In this document: positions 6,848 through 22,073 of the stretch, one piece after another | Layout: every line of letters begins with the position of its first letter | How positions within the stretch are numbered: position 1 is the stretch's first letter | Origin: a virus | Reading direction: 5' to 3' (one strand) | Length of the DNA: 22,766 nt | IMG/VR virus record: IMGVR_UViG_3300022748_000047 | Span: 1 to 22,766 of that record | Program-made: the position numbers and the translations under genes | The notes under the pieces: generated by a model | Told to the model about the DNA's origin: nothing | Database searches by the model: none | The model's input: the letters and a program-made list of their open reading frames with translations, nothing else

Positions 6848-6865
6848 AACAACGTAGGAGTAAGT

Positions 6866-7741
6866 ATGAATGCGTCCACTGAAGAATTTGGCAATAGTGC
6901 GGTTGAAAGCGTCAATCCGGCAGCCGAAAGCGCCAACATGGATCAGAATGCACTTGATGCGAATGCGCTGGAAGAATCGGAATCTAGTGCTAATGCTGAA
7001 GAAGAAGCGATTCAGCCTGAAGATAAAGAGCAAAAAGATCCTTGGTATAAGCGGCGGATTGATGAACTGACCAAAGACAAGCATGAGGCGCGTAGACATG
7101 CAGAACGCTTGGAGAAGATGCTTGAACAGATTGCTGGTCAACAGCAGAGAGCGCCAGAACCAGTAGCGCCTAGCATTCAACCGCCAGATCCTAATGACTT
7201 TGCTGGAGGACAGTATGATCCGCGTTATATTCAGGCTCAGTTGGAATACACGCGAGTTTCAGCGATTGAAGAAGCGAAGAGGGCTGTTGCTGCGGAATAT
7301 GAACAGCGGGCGCAAATTGAGCGTCAGACGCAAGCGCAAGCTAAGCTGGAGGCTTCAGAAGCGGTTACTAGGGCCAAATTTGCGGATTATGACGCGGTTA
7401 TCGAAGGGATTACATCGGACCCTAGGCTTGCACAGAACCCAACGATACGACAAGCGCTACTGGGTTTAGACAATGGACCAGAGATTGCTTACACGCTAGG
7501 CAAGAATCTAGATGTCGCATATGAAATCTCACAAATGAATCCTATTCAGGCCGGTATGCGTTTGGCTGAGATTATTAACCGTGCGCCTAGAAAGACATCT
7601 AATGCGCCAACGCCAATCAAACCGCTAGGCACTACTGGAGCTAATCCAGCTAAGACTTTGTATGAAATGTCTCCACAGGAATTTATTGCTGCTCGTAATG
7701 CAGAAGAACGTGCAAAGCGTGAGGCAAGAATCAAACGCTAA
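6866..7741 (+). CDS. Scaffolding protein (putative)
   Basis: A 291-residue acidic, highly helical protein, near the 303 residues of P22 gp8. It has a disordered acidic N-terminus, then a charged coiled coil (KDKHEARRHAERLEKMLEQI), a Pro/Gln linker, a second long helical region and a short basic C-terminus (ERAKREARIKR). A basic C-terminal helix is how P22 scaffold binds coat protein. Scaffold drives coat assembly and leaves the prohead. AGGAG (6856-6860) gives a 5-nt spacing to ATG 6866. The call rests on position, size and composition rather than on a conserved motif. Confidence 0.8.
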   Translation: MNASTEEFGNSAVESVNPAAESANMDQNALDANALEESESSANAEEEAIQPEDKEQKDPWYKRRIDELTKDKHEARRHAERLEKMLEQIAGQQQRAPEPVAPSIQPPDPNDFAGGQYDPRYIQAQLEYTRVSAIEEAKRAVAAEYEQRAQIERQTQAQAKLEASEAVTRAKFADYDAVIEGITSDPRLAQNPTIRQALLGLDNGPEIAYTLGKNLDVAYEISQMNPIQAGMRLAEIINRAPRKTSNAPTPIKPLGTTGANPAKTLYEMSPQEFIAARNAEERAKREARIKR

Positions 7742-7747
7742 ATACTA

Positions 7748-7756
7748 TGATATAGG
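7748..7756 (+). promoter_or_regulatory. Weak extended -10 motif after the scaffold gene
   Basis: TGATATAGG (TG 7748-7749, hexamer TATAGG 7751-7756) lies just past the scaffold stop. Six bases later comes GCGG (7763), the same spacing as at 474-486 and 7828-7840. The hexamer matches the consensus at four positions and no -35 box is evident, so activity is uncertain. If used, it would start a 61-nt transcript that ends at the terminator 7795-7823. Confidence 0.35.
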
Positions 7757-7762
7757 TTAGTT

Positions 7763-7823
7763 GCGGATCTAATCCGCTTCTTACTCCTCCTTATGGCCTA
7801 GACTAAACATCTGGGCCTTTTTT
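7763..7823 (+). ncRNA. Candidate 61-nt RNA with an anti-Shine-Dalgarno segment
   Basis: Three parts follow the promoter-like motif. The first is a hairpin GCGGAT/ATCCGC (7763-7768/7772-7777). The second is an unpaired pyrimidine-rich stretch containing CCTCCTTA (7786-7793), identical to the common 3' end of bacterial 16S rRNA. The third is a rho-independent terminator (7795-7823). CTTACTCCT (7780-7788) is perfectly complementary to AGGAGTAAG (6856-6864) at the scaffold ribosome site. This layout is that of a terminator-ended small RNA able to pair with ribosome sites. Expression is unproven, and it may simply be the 3' UTR of the scaffold message. Confidence 0.35.
7795..7823 (+). terminator. 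Rho-independent terminator after scaffold
   Basis: GGCCTAGA (7795-7802) pairs with TCTGGGCC (7810-7817), eight pairs with one T-G wobble and a 7-nt loop, followed by six T (7818-7823). It separates the terminase-scaffold unit from the endonuclease and coat genes, so coat expression should depend on promoters beyond it. Confidence 0.85.
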
Positions 7824-7824
7824 A

Positions 7825-7833
7825 TGTAATAAT
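7825..7833 (+). promoter_or_regulatory. Extended -10 motif before the GIY-YIG gene
   Basis: TGTAATAAT (TG 7825-7826, hexamer AATAAT 7828-7833) begins one base after the terminator T-run. The predicted start near G7840 falls at the base of the structured element 7839-7888, exactly as at the HNH gene. There is no clear -35 box. Confidence 0.45.
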
Positions 7834-7838
7834 ATCTT

Positions 7839-7888
7839 TGCGGCAGGAGGTTCGAAACTCCGTCTGGATTCACGCCCAGACAGCCGCA
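7839..7888 (+). ncRNA. Three-way-junction leader RNA, copy B (upstream of GIY-YIG gene)
   Basis: The outer stem TGCGGC (7839-7844)/GCCGCA (7883-7888) is identical to copy A. Hairpin 1 is GGAG (7846-7849)/CTCC (7858-7861) with an 8-nt loop. Hairpin 2 is GTCTGG (7862-7867)/CCAGAC (7876-7881) with an 8-nt loop. Compared with copy A, one of four pairs in hairpin 1 and five of six in hairpin 2 change on both sides and stay paired, which is strong sign of RNA selection. The GGAGGTTCG in hairpin 1 (7846-7854) is repeated at the coat ribosome site (8627-8635). Confidence 0.6.
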
Positions 7889-7922
7889 TTCTTCATGCGT
7901 GACCTATCGTGATGGTGATCTT

Positions 7923-8504
7923 ATGCACAAGCAGTTCTACGTCTACATTCACAAAAAGCCTGATGGGACGCCTTTCTATGTTGGAAAAGGGCATGGAAAA
8001 CGCGCATACAATCTACATAACCGCAACCCACACCACCAAGCTGTACTAAATAAGTACAAAGGCCAGATAATCATTGAAGTTACAAATTGCGAGACTGAGC
8101 AAGCCGCGTTTGAGCTAGAAAAGATCTACATTAAACAGCTGCGCGATCAAGGCTACAGGTTATGTAATCAAACAGATGGCGGTGAAGGCGTATCTGGATT
8201 CAAGTTTCCAGATGAAATAAAAGAACGCGTAAACGCAATCAATCGCACAAAAATTAGATCAGAAGAATTCAAATCAATGGTGTCAGCGCAATGGAAAGGC
8301 GTAAAGCGCGGAGAACAATCGCCAACACATAAACAGAGAAACGCAGAAGCCAAGAAAGGTAATACGTTTCGCCGTGGCGCAAAACACACGCCAGAATCAA
8401 TCGAGAAAATGAAAATAGCTCAGAGAGCATGGAGAGAGGAAAAAAAAAGAAAACAACTAATTGAAAAGTTAAAGAAATTGGAAGATGCTTTACAAGAAAA
8501 ATAA
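7923..8504 (+). CDS. Free-standing GIY-YIG homing endonuclease
   Basis: A 193-residue protein. The GIY-YIG core begins at once: FYVYIHKK (5-12), then PFYVGKGHGKRA (17-28) with the conserved Arg R27, and AAFELEKIYI with the likely metal-binding Glu E66. The rest is basic and modular, with a NUMOD3-like repeat (AKHTPESIEKMKIAQRAW), a short DNA-binding element common in phage homing enzymes, and a Lys-rich coiled tail. I prefer ATG 7923 because the GIY-YIG domain starts there and a weak GGTG lies upstream. GTG 7899 is the longer option, without a ribosome site. It is not inside the coat intron but upstream of the coat gene. It has its own terminator-isolated promoter and leader RNA. Confidence 0.9.
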   Translation: MHKQFYVYIHKKPDGTPFYVGKGHGKRAYNLHNRNPHHQAVLNKYKGQIIIEVTNCETEQAAFELEKIYIKQLRDQGYRLCNQTDGGEGVSGFKFPDEIKERVNAINRTKIRSEEFKSMVSAQWKGVKRGEQSPTHKQRNAEAKKGNTFRRGAKHTPESIEKMKIAQRAWREEKKRKQLIEKLKKLEDALQEK

Positions 8505-8516
8505 ATATGATATAAG
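8489..8516 (+). promoter_or_regulatory. Sigma70-type promoter for the coat gene
   Basis: TTTACA (8489-8494, five of six matches to TTGACA) and TATAAG (8511-8516) are 16 nt apart, with an added TG at 8508-8509. This is the best two-box promoter in the window. Its -35 box lies in the last codons of the GIY-YIG gene. It would supply coat mRNA downstream of the scaffold terminator. Confidence 0.6.
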
Positions 8517-8535
8517 TGCTTTACCAAAAGCATTC

Positions 8536-8605
8536 TGCCTAGATTCTTTTGCGGCCAATTGAACCATTCGAAGGATCGGCTCCTGTTCAATAACCTGATT
8601 AGGCA
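8536..8605 (+). other. Folded 5' leader of the coat gene
   Basis: Nested stems: TGCCTA (8536-8541)/TAGGCA (8600-8605), ATTGAAC (8558-8564)/GTTCAAT (8585-8591) and AGGA/TCCT (8572-8575/8581-8584). A separate hairpin TGCTTT/AAAGCA lies at 8517-8532. The ribosome site GGAGG (8627-8631), 6 nt before ATG 8638, is left free. The stem may stabilise the coat mRNA or guard it from nucleases. No known family is recognised. Confidence 0.45.
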
Positions 8606-8637
8606 AATCTTTTATCAATTTTTTATGGAGGTTCGCA

Positions 8638-10196
8638 ATGTCGAATCAATTGCTTACCATTAGTATGATCAATTGGTCCGTCTAATCTGTAAAGATTAGA
8701 AAAGTACAGGGTGAATTGCTGGAACTCCCTTAGAGCCTAAATGCCACAACGTAGTCTGCAAAGGCAAGCGTGAAGGACTGAAAAGTTTTAGGATTGGGAA
8801 ATCAGCAGCCAAGCGACTCAGGAATGAGTTGAAGGTTCAACGACTAGAACATACCGGCCAGAACGGTCGATGAAGTTCCAAGAGTGCCCTGCATCCTACT
8901 GGGATGAAGATATAGTCTCATCTAGCTTGAAAGGGCTAGGACTAGGAAATTAAAAAGCTAGTCATAAGATAATGCACTAATGAAGCCCTCCGCGTATTGA
9001 CAAACCAGCTGGTTTTCACTCGCGCAGTATCTCGGCAGTATGACGATAAATTTGCCATCGAAGGGGCAAAAATCGGGACTACTATAAATCTCAGGAAGCC
9101 CCCGCGTTATGTCGGTCGTACCGGCCCTGCGCTCCAGGTTGAATCCTCTGTTGAAACCTATGTACCGCTGACCCTGGGAACCCAGTTCGGCGTAGACATG
9201 GCGTTTACGACTCAGGACCTCACGATGAACATCAGCGACTTCTCTGATCGTTTCATCAAGCCTGCTGTAGCGGCTGTTGCGAATAAGATCGACTATGACG
9301 GTCTTCAGCAGTTCCTTAATGTTTACAACCTTGTTGGTACTCCTGGTCAGTTGACCGGCACTCCGACTCAGGCACAGTCTACGGCGGCTATTCTTGCTGC
9401 TCGTGCACGTCTGAATCAGGAAGCCGCTCCGGTTGACGAAGAGCGTCACTTTGTTGTCGATCCGACTGTGGAAGTTGGCATCGTTTCTGGTCTTACGAAC
9501 CTGTTTAATCCGCAGGGTGTTATCTCTCGCATCTTTGAAAAAGGTGCGCTTGGTGACTCTACTCTCGGCTTCAACTTCGCAATGGACCAGAACGTAGGTA
9601 ACTTCACCTCCGGTACGTTCATTGTCGGCACTGACACTCTGGCAGTTGCTGCACAGGCTGGTGGTTCAGTACAGACGAATGCACAGACTGCATTCTCTCT
9701 GACTGCAACGATCACTTCTGGCAAGACGCTGACTCAGGGCACTGTCTTCACCATTCCTGGTGTATATGCAGTTAACCCGCAGAACCGTCAGTCTACTGGC
9801 GCACTGCGCAACTTCGTTCTTACTGCTGGCGTTACCGGCACTGGTTCTTCACAGACCCTTTCTGTGTTCCCGACTCCGGTATTCTCTGGTCAGTTCCAGA
9901 ACGTTACCAGCAGCACTGGCACGATTCCGAGTGGCAACGCTTCTGTCATCTCTGGTTCTAACGGATCTTCTTACCCGAACGCGATTGCATTCCACAAGGA
10001 TGCGTTTGCATTTGGTACGGCTGATCTTATTCTGCCCCAGGGTGTTGACATGGCCGGTCGCGCATCAGCAGATGGCGTGAGCATCCGTCTTGTTCGTCAG
10101 TACGACATCAACAGCGATCAGCTGCCTTGCCGTCTTGACGTACTGTACGGCTGGTCAACCGTCTATCCTGAACTCGCTACTCGCGTAACTGGTTAA
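8638..10196 (+). CDS. Major capsid (coat) protein, P22 type, split by a group I intron
   Basis: The gene is join(8638..8669, 8975..10196), 417 residues after splicing (P22 coat: 430). Exon 1 follows GGAGG (8627-8631) and the joined N-terminus reads MSNQLLTISMITNEALRVL, the usual start of this coat family. RAVSRQYDDKFAIEGAKIG, the Asn/Pro-rich middle with a likely inserted beta domain (GDxFTIPGVYAVNPQNRQSTG-like, about 270-350) and a C-terminal LVRQYDINSDQLPCRLDVLY fit P22-type HK97-fold coats. Without splicing, translation stops after 15 residues at TAA 8683. Automated calling would start at TTG 8997 and lose 18 residues. Codon use in exon 2 is richer in C and G, as for a highly expressed gene. 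Confidence 0.92.
8670..8974 (+). ncRNA. Group I self-splicing intron (ORF-less, IA-like)
   Basis: Splicing after T8669 and G8974 restores the coat frame. The 5' exon ends in T and the intron ends in G, as required. P1: GATC (8667-8670) pairs with GGTC (8675-8678), placing the splice-site T8669 opposite G8676 in the usual wobble. P2: TCTAATC/GATTAGA (8681-8687/8694-8700). P3: TGAA (8712-8715)/TTCA (8836-8839). P4: TGCTG (8717-8721)/CAGCA (8803-8807). P7: GACTA (8842-8846)/TAGTC (8913-8917) within the hallmark GTTCAACGACTA and AAGATATAGTC strings. P9-like stems follow: CTAGC/GCTAG and GACTAG/CTAGTC. It encodes no protein. The subgroup is inferred from the core strings. Confidence 0.92.
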
Positions 10197-10211
10197 TAGG
10201 AGTACACGAAA

Positions 10212-10630: not shown

Positions 10631-10644
10631 ATAAGGAGTAAAGA

Positions 10645-12989: not shown

Positions 12990-15900
12990 ATGTCTAATCT
13001 TGGCCCTCAACAAATAAACACATCTTATCCCGGCTTACTGCAAGTTCCAGGTGGACTTACAACTGTTTTGCAATATGTCAGCGATGGCGCTGGCAACACA
13101 TCTCCTTGGCAACTTAGCACAACATCTATTGGCTTTGGTTCATTGCAACTTTCCGGCTCTATCGACATGGGCGGAAATGCAATCAACAATCTTGCAACGC
13201 CTGTTCTTGGCTCTGACGCGGCCACAAAAGCATATGTGGATTCTGTTGCTGTAGGTCTTCAGCCTAAAGCGGAAGTAAAGGCTGCAAGCACTGGCGATAT
13301 TACTCTTTCCGGCACGCAGATTATTGACGGCATCACTCTGTCATCTGGCGATAGAGTGCTAGTCAAGAATCAAGCAATTCAATCGCAAAATGGCATTTAT
13401 ACAGTCAGTTCTGGTCCTTGGAGTCGCGCATCTGATGCTGACACTTGGAGCGAATTAGTAAGCGCATATCTATTTGTGCAGCTTGGAACGACTCAAGCAG
13501 CTACATCTTGGGTTTGTAATATCCCGCCTGGAGGAACTCTTGGCGTAACGGCTGTTACTTGGCTATTGTTCTCTCAGTCTTCTTCTGTTCTTTCAAATTA
13601 CCTGACATTTGATGCGCTTGGCGATGGCGAAGAAGGCGTTACGGATATTGCGACTGAAGCAAGTGCTAATGTTCTGACTGAAAGCAGTGAATTTCTAACA
13701 ATTCAAACGCCAAGCGCGTTGCTTTTCAATGGATCTGCGCCATTAACGATTTCTTACAACAGTATTGGCGCGGCTGACATAAATGGATATGACGTAACGC
13801 CGGGATCAGTCTGGAATATCAATGTTCTTGGCAATGCTGAAACCGTTACAAATGGCGTTTACACGTCTACAAATTATCTTGATCCGTCATGGCTGACTGG
13901 CCTTGCGTCTTCTAAGCTCATTGGCGCAGTTTCAGTCAACAACGGCGGTACTGGTGTAGCTACTTTATCCGGTGTTCTGTACGGAAATGGCACTAGCGCA
14001 GTCACAACAGCTACTGGATCTCAGATTTCTACAGCAATTGGCTCTACGCCAGTCGCTTATGCAACCAATCTGACAGGAACTCTAAGCATTGCAAATGGCG
14101 GTACGGGCCAAACCAGTGCAAATGATGCTTTAAATGCGTTGCTTCCAGCGCAATCAGGCAATACAAATCGTGTTTTGTACACGGATGGCATTAATGCTTC
14201 TTGGAGTACATCACTTGCTCTGACAATGGGCAATATGGGCGTTGCTGTTACGCCTGCGCCATGGCCTTTTGCTGGCAACATTCAAGCAAGCAATCTGTCA
14301 TTTACAAGCGTAGGGACGCTTGGAGCCAACGTATATTACGACGGCGGATACAAGTACATAGGACCAGGTGTAGCAACTGCGCTTGCGTTGTCTGCTGATG
14401 CTGGTTTTTATTGGTATTCAACGTCTACGCCAGGGACTGCTGGAGCCGCCGTTCCGTTCAATGAGGTAATGAAGCTAGACGCTTCAGCAAAGCTCACGGT
14501 TGCTGGAGATATCAAAGCAGGCGGAAACATTGGCATTACAAGCAATATTAGTTCCTGGGGCACTGGATCGACGCTAGAGATGTCTTCTGGCGCTATTCAT
14601 TCGCCGGATAACGCAACTATTGATTACGCGCAAAACGTATATCTAAACAGCGCTCCGCAATGGATCAGAAAAAATAACGGTCCTGCTTCTATTTATAGGC
14701 AGACATCAGGCGCACATGAGTTTTATGTTACCGGATCAGGATCTGCTGGAAGCGTTGCAACTTTTGGCGCTCCAAGCGTATCTATTAACAACGCTGGAAA
14801 TCTAAATCTTGCAAATGCGCTGTTGCTGAATGGCAGTGCAGGCACTACTGGACAAGTTCCTACATCTACCGGTGGCGGAGCAATGGTTTGGGGTACTGGT
14901 GGGGGTGCGACTGGACCTGTTGGACCTACTGGACCGTCTGGACCTATTGGACCCACTGGAATACAAGGACCGACTGGGCCAAGTGGATTAGGCGCTACAG
15001 GTGCTACAGGTGCTATTGGACCCACTGGTCCTGCTGGAAGCGCTGGAAATCTCCTGTATTTTAATATTGTTGACTACGGCGCATCTTCTGGTGGATCTGC
15101 TACCACAAACACTACAGCTATAAATAATGCGGCATCTGCGGCAAATGCGGCTGGCGGTGGTGTTGTTTACATTCCACGGGGAACTTATCAGATCAATGGA
15201 ACGATCACTGTTTACAACAAAGTGATTTTTCAAGGTCAGGGAGTTGACGTATCAATAGTACAAAGAGCGCCATCTTTTACTAGCGGTGATATGTTTGTCA
15301 CCTATGGTTTTTATAACTCTCCGGGTGGCACTCCTACATATCCTAATTATAATTCTGTAGCGCAAAATGCTGCAGCAGAAAATAATTCAGCCACAAATCC
15401 TTGGTACATTGGTGGATATTCAAGAGCCGGTGTGTATGAATTTGGTTTTTCAAGCCTAACAATTGACGGAAATAGAGGAGCAACTGGCGGAGCTGGCGGT
15501 TGGTGTCTAATCATTTTCGGTTATGGCTATGTCATAAACAATATTGAGATTGTTGGTTGTCCTCAGGGTGGCATGTATGCGCGTTGGTGGATAGGTGGCG
15601 TTGCAGATCCTTCATTGTTCGATTACGGAACACATCTAAATGCGCCACAAGCATTTGTGACAAATGTCAATATATCTGCTCCTACAATAACACCAGAAAT
15701 AAATGGACCGCATGATGTAATTATTTCAAACTTCATGGTTTCATTTACTAGCCCAAATTCAGTGTATACCGGGGCCGCTCTTTCAATCGGGCCCGGAGCT
15801 CAGGGTGCTTGCATTAGCAATATGCACCCATGGTCATTCAACACAACGATTTGCCTTAAAATTAATTGTTCATTCTGCACAATTACTAATCTAGTTTTAG

Positions 15901-16880
15901 ATAATGTGCAAAATGGCGGCACTATGCTTGTTATTACAGGCGACGGAAACAATGTTCAAGGTATAGTTGTAGGTATTGATAATCAAACAAGCACAGTAGT
16001 TCAGCCGCAATCTGGATATGGTGCAAATCGCGTTAGCATGTTTGTTACGGCTGGCGGCTCAGGTAGCTGCACTCTTTTAAATGCTGCAGCAGAATCAAAC
16101 ATTGGTAGCACATATGAGTTCAACCTATACACATATGGAGCAATCAACATTGTTCCTATTGCGGCTGGATATGTTTCACCTCTTGATTCATTTACATACA
16201 ACGTTTTTAAAGAAAACGGTCACACTGGATCAGTTCCATCAAGCTACCAGCATTTATCAGGGGCAATTCAAGCAAGCAACGGTTTTGGCTCATCAGGTCA
16301 AGTGCTTACTTCATCTGGCGGCGGTCAGATGTCTTGGACGACTGTTGGTAGTGGCGGCTGGACACAATCAGGGTCAAACACATATACATTTGGAAATGTA
16401 GGAATTGGTGTAGGGCCAGATAGTGTTGCAAAATTAAATATCTATAATTCTTCTCTTGCAGCAAATACATCAACATTAGCATTCTTTAATAGAACAACTG
16501 ACGGAGATGTAATTACGTTTTTTGAAGGATCAACATACGCTGGTAAAGTTTATTATTCTGGCGGTGTTGTTGGATTTCAGCCAGCGTCTGATTACAGAAT
16601 TAAAGAAAATGTTTCAGGCATTTCTGATGCAATCAATTCTGTAATGTCTTTAAATCCAGTTAAATACAACATGACTGGATATGAAATGATTGTTGATGGC
16701 TTTCTTGCACACGAAGCGCAACAAGTACTTCCATTTGCTGTATCTGGCACAAAAGACGAGGTAGATGAAGATGGCAATCCGGTTTATCAAGGAATTGATT
16801 ACTCTAGATTTGTTCCGTTGCTCACAGCCGCCATCAAAGAACTTGTTGCCAGAGTTAAAACTCTGGAAGACAAAGGATAG
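12990..16880 (+). CDS. Large multidomain tail spike: beta-helix domain and S74 chaperone
   Basis: A 1296-residue receptor-binding or depolymerase-like spike. The N-terminal part (1-200) holds [20 protein letters not shown] and DADTWSEL, a common fibre domain. NGGTG repeats follow. A short collagen-like run (639-686) leads to a pectate-lyase-type beta-helix: [12 protein letters not shown] (about 692) and [20 protein letters not shown], continuing to about 1100. Enzymatic residues cannot be assigned. The last 97 residues, from S1200 (SDYRIKENV), are an S74 chaperone that should self-cleave. No strong ribosome site precedes ATG 12990. It probably degrades or binds a surface polysaccharide. Confidence 0.88.
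14904..15047 (+). repeat. Collagen-like GXY repeat in the spike
   Basis: Sixteen triplets of Gly-X-Y type (many GPT and GAT) encode residues 639-686, with one shortened triplet (GPS-GL-GAT) that breaks the register. It likely forms a flexible trimeric rod between the stem and the beta-helix. Confidence 0.85.
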
Positions 16881-19927: not shown

Positions 19928-20127
19928 TGGCTATTCCACAACCGCCATTTAGGTCTGCAACTGCTGATAAAAACGGCATGTTTAACCCTGTTTGGGTACA
20001 ATGGTTTCAGCAAGTTCAAGAACAACTTAGCTCTAGTAGTAGCCCAGTAATTGATGGCGGTACGCCTTCATCTATTTATGGCGGATCTATCACAGCCATT
20101 AGCGGCGGAACGGTAGGAAACAGATGA
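19927..20127 (+). CDS. Small tail protein before the collagen-like fibre
   Basis: A 66-residue protein with [17 protein letters not shown] near the middle, a pattern typical of short phage proteins that lie just ahead of fibre genes, followed by a Ser/Gly-rich tail. It starts in the stop codon of the gp10-like gene and overlaps the fibre gene by ATGA, so three genes share a translational chain. It may be a fibre anchor or assembly factor, inferred from position. Confidence 0.7.
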
Positions 20128-22073
20128 CAGTTCAAATCCAACTTAGAAGAGGCTCTGCCTCAGAATGGTCAACAGCTAATCCGACTCTTGCATCCGGTGA
20201 AATGGGTGTAGAAACGGATACTGGCCGATTCAAGGTTGGTAATGGTTCTACGCCATGGAATGCTTTGCCATATTCATCTGGCCCTGCTGGCCCTACTGGT
20301 CCACAAGGTGCAACTGGTGCTGCTGGCGATCCTGGCGGACCTACTGGCGTAACTGGTCCTACTGGCGCAACAGGTGTTGGCACAACAGGCGCAACTGGGC
20401 CAATTGGAGCGACCGGAATTCGCGGAGCAACAGGTCCGACTGGTATTGGAACGACCGGAGCAACAGGAGTTATTGGACCTAACGGAATTACTGGAGCCAC
20501 TGGCGTTCAAGGCGCTACAGGACCAGCAGGAACAACTGGCGCACAAGGACCAACCGGCGTACAAGGCGCAACTGGAATACAAGGTGCTACAGGTATTCAA
20601 GGAACGATTGGCGTAACAGGCGCAACAGGTCCGCAAGGATTAGCTGGAGATACTGGCGCTACTGGCATACAAGGACCAACAGGTGCTATTGGGCCACAAG
20701 GCGCATCTGGAGCAACTGGACCAGTAGGTGCAAATGGACCACAGGGCGCAACAGGATTAACTGGCGCAACTGGTATTGCTGGAAATACTGTCCTTAATGG
20801 AACTGTGGCTCCGACTGCTGGAATTGGTGTAAATGGTGATTTTTACATCAATACAACCAATGAAAATATTTATGGCCCTAAAGCCGCTGGCGCTTGGCCG
20901 GTTGGCGTTTCTCTTGTAGGTTCAACTGGCGCTACTGGATTACAAGGATCTACAGGGCCGATTGGCGTTACAGGACCGCAGGGCGCAACTGGCGTTATTG
21001 GCGTAACGGGCGCGACTGGCGTACAAGGAATAACAGGAGCAACAGGCGTTGCTGGCGCTGGTGGTGCTAATGGTTACTGGGGATCTTTTTATGATACTAG
21101 CAACCAGGCAGCAACAAGCACAACTGCTGTTTATCCCGCAAAACTGAATCATACCGATATCAACAGTAATGGCGTAAGCATCGGTAACGATCCTTCAGGC
21201 AATCCGACCAAGATTATTTTTGCTAATGCTGGCGTTTACAACGTTCAATTTTCAGCGCAGTTCGTTAACACAGACACACAGATTCATAACGCGCAAATTT
21301 GGCTACGACTAAACGATACAGGTAGCGCTGGTGACATTGCTGATTCTGCCGGTGAAATTGCGATCACAAACAGTCATGGTGGCATTGATGGTCTGAACGT
21401 TGTTTCTTGGAACTATGTTCTCAAGCTAAATGCCGGTGACTATCTACAATTGATGTGGCGCGTTGATAGCACTCAGGTCAGCATGCAGACGCTTCCTGCG
21501 GGAACCAGTCCGGTTTATCCAGAAACGCCTTCATTGATTTTGACGGCTACTCAGGTTCTTTATACGCAAATCGGACCATCAGGAGCTACTGGCCCTATCG
21601 GACCTACTGGAGCGATTGGTGTTACTGGACCTACTGGTGTAGGCATTACAGGTGCTACTGGTGTACAAGGTCCGACTGGACCACAAGGAGTTACGGGGCC
21701 TACTGGTCCAACTCCAGTTCAAAACATTACGCATTACAACTCGACTTCTGCTACGAACGTACAAGGTGGATTGGCGATTGGCTCAACTGTTACGCAAGCG
21801 GTTGTAGACACTGACGCTAGCGGCTCTACTAATGGCATTACATTGCCGACAGGCGCTAGTGGTATGATTGTGACCGTAACGAACCTTGGGCCACAAAATT
21901 TGAATGTTTATCCTGCATCTACTGGGCGGATCTATCAGGCAACGGCTACAAATTCGCCAGTGCTTTTGATTGCGGGAGATGCTTCTCAATTTGTTTACAT
22001 TAGCTCAAATTCGTTAGGTTCTTGCTGGTTCCAGCAGATTTACGCATTTGACTGTTTGTTAACAGAGACATGA
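20124..22073 (+). CDS. Collagen-like tail fibre with jelly-roll domain
   Basis: A 649-residue fibre. Residues 1-50 ([20 protein letters not shown], then [17 protein letters not shown]) form the attachment head found on many phage fibres. Collagen-like runs cover 53-220, 267-314 and 484-530. A linker with [19 protein letters not shown] follows the first run. Residues 317-480 look like a C1q/TNF-type jelly roll ([25 protein letters not shown]). The end (531-649) is a beta domain with a QFVYISSN strand. The modules suggest a trimeric rod with two adhesive heads for host binding. Thr is very frequent in Gly-X-Thr triplets. Confidence 0.9.
20280..20783 (+). repeat. Collagen-like repeat block 1
   Basis: About 56 Gly-X-Y triplets (residues 53-220). 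Most carry Thr or Gln in the third place ([12 protein letters not shown]). The codons for repeated triplets vary, so long exact DNA repeats are rare. Confidence 0.9.
20922..21065 (+). repeat. Collagen-like repeat block 2
   Basis: Residues 267-314 form about 16 Gly-X-Y triplets between a linker and the jelly-roll domain. Composition matches block 1, with many GAT and GVT triplets. Confidence 0.85.
21573..21713 (+). repeat. Collagen-like repeat block 3
   Basis: Residues 484-530 form about 16 triplets joining the jelly roll to the C-terminal beta domain. One triplet is broken at GVGITG. Codons vary between repeats. Confidence 0.85.

Follow-up and report, generated by a model that had tools for sequence, protein, structure and literature searches.

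A candidate phage small-RNA gene behind the scaffold gene, with a linker complementary to the scaffold start region

Introduction

Capsid assembly requires a fixed ratio of scaffold to coat protein. In phage P22, the scaffolding gene is autoregulated post-transcriptionally, free scaffold protein being the repressor, and to our knowledge no small RNA takes part in this control. The C4 antisense RNA of phages P1 and P7 lies upstream of its target in the same transcript and controls an antirepressor. Among described systems, the nearest in mechanism to the element studied here appear to be OppZ and CarZ of Vibrio cholerae, two autoregulatory small RNAs derived from 3' UTRs, which RNase E releases from the mRNA and which depend on Hfq (PMC7398697), and the icaR mRNA of Staphylococcus aureus, whose long 3' UTR pairs with its 5' UTR with the involvement of RNase III (PMC3868564). 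The nearest in layout appears to be Yfr1 of cyanobacteria, an RNA of 54-69 nt in which two stem-loops flank an open stretch of 16-20 nt containing ACUCCUC (PMC2190773, RF01116).

Here, we analyse an element located directly behind the scaffold gene of a P22-type podovirus. We think it rather probable, from sequence comparisons, that positions 7748-7823 are a phage small-RNA gene whose RNA, of ~61 nt, would repress scaffold translation. Like OppZ and CarZ, the element sits at the far 3' end of the operon that it would control and shares its terminator, and it is predicted to pair with the start region of this same operon, which would block translation. Unlike these bacterial, RNase E-processed, and Hfq-dependent RNAs, it has a conserved promoter spacing that suggests a primary transcript. 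As in icaR, an anti-Shine-Dalgarno sequence downstream of a gene could pair with the Shine-Dalgarno (SD) of the same gene, but icaR relies on a long 3' UTR without a separate small RNA, whereas the phage element is a short promoter-terminator unit. The succession of a 15-nt hairpin, a 17-nt linker, and a terminator, 61 nt in all, matches the layout of Yfr1, but location and target differ and the ultraconserved Yfr1 undecamer ACUCCUCACAC is not complete. The resemblance to C4 lies in a proposed phage RNA that is on the same strand as its target, adjacent to it, and endowed with a short complementarity to its ribosome binding site; the upstream position of C4 in the target's transcript and its action on an antirepressor, not on virion assembly, set the two apart. 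Finally, the P22 system shares with the one proposed here the tuning of scaffold synthesis after transcription to match assembly, but its repressor is the scaffold protein, while the one proposed here is an RNA.

Results

The window, by which we mean the whole 22.8-kb virus record that was analysed, belongs to a freshwater P22-type podovirus with the gene order terminase, P22 portal, scaffold, P22 coat. The scaffold was identified by its match to PHROG 8865, head scaffolding protein (E 1.7e-32), and shares 27% identity with the protein annotated as scaffolding in Xanthomonas phage PBR31; a search for the coat in the genome collection returned distant coats only (36-39%). Downstream of scaffold, the 61-nt segment is followed by the gene of a GIY-YIG-like homing endonuclease, then by a second promoter and its structured leader, and finally by coat exon 1 and a group I intron (Table 1). 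The comparisons below use loci around coat and scaffold relatives from IMG/VR (designated by L and a number), whose gene starts were predicted by a simple script.

Table 1. Features of the scaffold region and of the candidate small-RNA gene in the window
Feature	Position	Strand	Remarks
Proposed target AGGAGTAAG	6856-6864	+	SD and spacer of the scaffold gene
Scaffold gene, 291 aa	6866-7741	+	Between P22-type portal and P22-type coat
Candidate small-RNA gene	7748-7823		76 bp including the promoter element; directly behind the scaffold gene
Extended -10 element TGA-TATAGG	7748-7756	+	TGNTATA invariant in 13 aligned haplotypes, five lineages
Spacer, -10 to first transcribed G	7757-7762	+	6 nt; length fixed, sequence variable
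5' hairpin GCGGATCTAATCCGC, 6 bp	7763-7777	+	Opens at the predicted transcription start
Single-stranded linker TTCTTACTCCTCCTTAT	7778-7794	+	Contains CTTACTCCT and CCTCCTTA
Anti-scaffold stretch CTTACTCCT	7780-7788	+	Complementary to 6856-6864
16S-like octamer CCTCCTTA	7786-7793	+	Within the linker
Intrinsic terminator	7795-7823	+	8-bp stem 7795-7817, TTTTTT 7818-7823
GIY-YIG-like homing endonuclease gene	7899-8504		Free-standing; PHROG 314

Several neighbouring features deserve a record of their own. At 8508-8633, coat has an extended -10 promoter of its own, TGATATAAG, and a 5' leader that is structured and conserved, with the core ATTCGAGGGATTGGCTCCC and a variable hairpin upstream of this core. 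RNAalifold applied to 29 relatives gave 17 pairs in the leader, 16 of them with two-sided compensatory changes; Rfam holds no match to it (window and L066), and it is possibly a cis-regulatory coat RNA not described before. A conserved structured stretch ahead of the GIY-YIG-like gene (GCGGCAGGAGGTTCGAAACTCCGTCTGGATTCACGCCCAGACAGCCGC, 7842-7889) shows paired changes in L040, and a similar structure is found in L001/L004, there without the endonuclease gene. The group I intron (8638-8939; RF00028, 82 bits) interrupts the coat gene near codon 11 and apparently lacks an internal ORF; interruptions of coat also occur in L011, L040, and L065. An HNH endonuclease gene (566-1060; PHROG 99, E 1.4e-58) is the second homing-type gene of the window, and two large ORFs with collagen-like GPTG/GATG repeats (12990-16880 and 20124-22073) are probably structural.

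The 61-nt segment has a predicted fold of -20.8 kcal/mol (z -5.3 versus shuffles, 0 of 200 as good), which is largely due to its two hairpins, and its terminator is predicted to be the 3' end of both the RNA and the scaffold operon. The -10 element is of the same class as the coat promoter at 8508. It was not listed by a general promoter scan of the window and, as TATAGG, it lacks the usual final T, has no -35, and is not optimal, which counts against a small-RNA gene; it is credible as a promoter only because it is conserved. A search of Rfam for known families produced sub-threshold matches only. The Yfr1 model scored 17.7 bits (gathering score 38), and at the place of its undecamer the window has ACUCCUCCUUA and the best relatives, L009 and L082, have ACUCCUCAC. 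The C4 model had no match in the window, nor at E values up to 10 in 7730-7850. Since no family cut-off was reached, we file the element as a member of no family.

Taken by itself, the window genome gives pairing signals that do not exceed chance. Around 6% of all its 61-nt segments have a perfect complement of at least 9 nt to one of 20 start regions, and CCTCCTTA is expected 0.35 times per window. As a consequence, the claim rests on the relatives, not on the window.

In 12 of the 12 haplotypes examined, the same module directly follows the scaffold gene: TGNTATARN, an invariable gap of 6 nt, a G at the opening of a perfect hairpin, a single-stranded linker of 14-22 nt, and a terminator. A scan of all the loci fetched by that point found this layout behind scaffold only, and the predicted RNA measures 59-69 nt across module-bearing lineages. 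In distant annotated phages, scaffold and coat are direct neighbours or are separated by a terminator alone, and the module is absent; further coat queries against the viral collection returned the same contigs, and the clade looks exhausted there. The hairpin sequence is wholly replaced between lineages (arms GCGGAT/ATCCGC, GCCAG/CTGGT, GTGCTA/TAGCAC, GTCAGC/GCTGAC, and GTCTC/GAGAC) with 25 of 25 pairs standard, and when arms were reassigned between lineages a single assignment out of 120, the true one, kept every pair. Two-sided changes affect four of five hairpin pairs in relatives, with all cells paired (because MAFFT alignments misplace the arms, the counting was done with a script that works by stem position), and the terminator stem is altered with compensation in L085/L087. 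A transcription start would require just such a constant distance between an extended -10 and the purine that opens a variable hairpin, and this conserved layout speaks for the discrete small RNA between promoter and terminator, with its 5' end at 7763, that the original prediction had proposed. L089/L091 and, as a separate case, L212 have a tRNA gene between the scaffold stop codon and the module; the module is intact from the promoter on, which argues against a plain read-through function.

We then compared the linkers with the scaffold start region (-25 to +18, hereafter TIR) and with the other genes of the same locus. In all 16 loci, the best target was scaffold. In the window, three competing genes trail it by no more than 1.1 kcal/mol, and it is the only gene to rank first in every relative. 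This rank was rejected as sufficient evidence by itself, because linkers taken from other lineages also place scaffold first in 50% of the cases, and we therefore used a reassignment test among six lineages. The native linker/TIR sum was reached by 3-5 of 720 reassignments (native included), depending on the representatives, a value that is a guide and not an exact probability because the six lineages belong to one clade and share ancestry. The linker thus varies together with its target, and the site of pairing shifts between lineages, from the SD in the window to the start codons in L053 and L072, with both spanned in L031. In the window lineage CTTACTCCT pairs with AGGAGTAAG; the partners in L072 are TCACTCAT in the linker and AUGAGUGA in the TIR. 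In L053, a duplex of 12 bp joins GUCUC...AUCACUC to codons 1-5 (-15.1 kcal/mol), and in L031 a 22-nt linker forms 20 bp from the SD to codon 5 (-27.8 kcal/mol). Shuffled linkers reached the native strength in 0.7% of cases in the window, 2.7% in L072, 3.7% in L046, and 19% in L009, and in 0 of 300 in both L053 and L031. Co-folding indicates that hairpin and terminator can persist during linker pairing (window, L053, L072, and L031). The scaffold ribosome site, named as the partner from the window alone, thus appears well chosen, since pairing between linker and scaffold beats reassignment across lineages. Some observations count against a small-RNA gene: the core is broken in L083 (CTCATC) though its scaffold SD is unchanged, the pairing is weak in L005 (-9.9), and that of L009 is ordinary, as its shuffles indicate. 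When the whole 3' UTR replaced the linker in the pairing test, there was no clear native excess; this version is noisy, as hairpin arms join in. In the L031 element (1938-1980 of that locus), the untranscribed spacer (TGAACC) duplicates the scaffold codons with which the linker pairs, so that in a transcript reading through from upstream a longer hairpin would mask the linker.

Could the linker pair by chance? The element might be a transcription end with two hairpins, under selection for terminator strength and protection of the mRNA 3' end only. Pyrimidine-rich linkers pair with any purine-rich SD, and both the ranks obtained with cross-lineage linkers and the frequency of equally perfect matches among random segments fit this idea. 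Yet the native pairing is stronger than under reassignment, L031 and L053 pair with codons past the SD at a strength that no shuffle attains, and the linker core CTTACTCC is kept while the neighbouring 5' arm changes, so we regard this explanation as improbable.

The original prediction had given most weight to ribosomal mimicry. All the strings that it listed are in place, including AGGAGTA at 10198, AGGAGTAA at 10634, and GGAGG at 8627, and CCTCCTTA is identical to the 3' end of the E. coli 16S rRNA. An RNA with the ribosomal anti-Shine-Dalgarno might bind many mRNAs and cause a general translation shutdown, like the toxic small RNAs of Betaproteobacteria, whose model (RF02278) scores 19.2 bits. 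This is far below the gathering score of 50, and L066, which has a terminator only and lacks the element, scores alike (18.3). The octamer CCTCCTTA occurs in 4 of the 11 close haplotypes with a terminator and is lost, with terminators intact, in the other seven (L082, L083, L086, L087, L089, L091, and L093), the very loss that the prediction had said would tell against it; the core CTTACTCC is retained in 10 of the 11. L072 is entirely devoid of CTCC, and a general damping of translation through the sites at 8627, 10198, and 10634 found no comparative support. We therefore rejected 16S mimicry on the evidence of the relatives and consider it very improbable.

Discussion

Our analysis leads us to propose a mechanism in which 1) the extended -10 promoter would start transcription at G7763; 2) the resulting RNA of ~61 nt would have two hairpins, one at its 5' end and one formed by the terminator, with an open linker between them; 3) the linker would base-pair with the translation initiation region of the mRNA from the scaffold gene immediately upstream; 4) this pairing would cover the scaffold SD or, in relatives, the start codon and first codons; and 5) it would lower scaffold translation and help to set the scaffold-to-coat ratio. 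From these patterns we infer expression of the RNA, action in trans, and repression as the outcome.

The same sequence can be read as the 3' UTR of the scaffold mRNA, with the linker folding back on its own start region as in icaR, and with a promoter-like element that is incidental or part of an extended stem. The pairing between linker and TIR needs no promoter, and the L046/L127 lineage, where the lack of a recognisable -10 counts against a small-RNA gene, is complementary all the same. Terminator-only lineages (L066, L050, L056, L015, L012, and L007) have partial complementarity to the scaffold start, which in some of them might fit a role in cis (-16.7 in L050, 6 bp in L015). A further, outer stem formed by the -10 region with the linker would also fit, but it is weak (5/120 to 9/720), is carried by L031 and L053, and is weak in the window lineage; it was rejected. 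On balance, we find such a purely cis-acting element unlikely, and a number of arguments favour a separate RNA. First, the element has a predicted promoter of its own. Second, its predicted start is fixed, and a 3' UTR gives no reason for the exact 6-nt spacing between TGNTATARN and the hairpin G in 12 haplotypes. Third, the tRNA genes found between stop and element in two lineages would sever the 3' UTR from the mRNA. The sequence may also have a cis role in the 3' end of the scaffold mRNA, and cis and trans action may both operate.

Other arrangements were seen in lineages without the module. The unusual scaffold SDs AGGGG (L050), CGGAGA (L015), and TGGGG (L007) have matching CCCCT, TCTCCG, and CCCCA upstream of the scaffold terminator. 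In L001, L004, and L042, a small ORF replaces the module, and its codons CATTGCTTCTGAT could form a 13-nt duplex with ATCAGGAGTAATG in the scaffold SD region, while the remainder of the locus offers no site as good; this is possibly the same control in another form, or a coincidence.

The chances seem to us evenly balanced that these loci represent a family of phage small RNAs that have their own promoter and terminator behind scaffold, co-evolve with the scaffold start, and set the scaffold-to-coat ratio in capsid assembly. We know of no earlier case of a small RNA controlling phage morphogenesis, and this one, if true, would be the first. A word search of a 2025 review of phage small RNAs found that capsid and morphogenesis are not mentioned (PMC12197685). 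An RNA brake lodged in the gap between scaffold and coat would, if true, be a very compact solution, unlike the protein repressor of P22.
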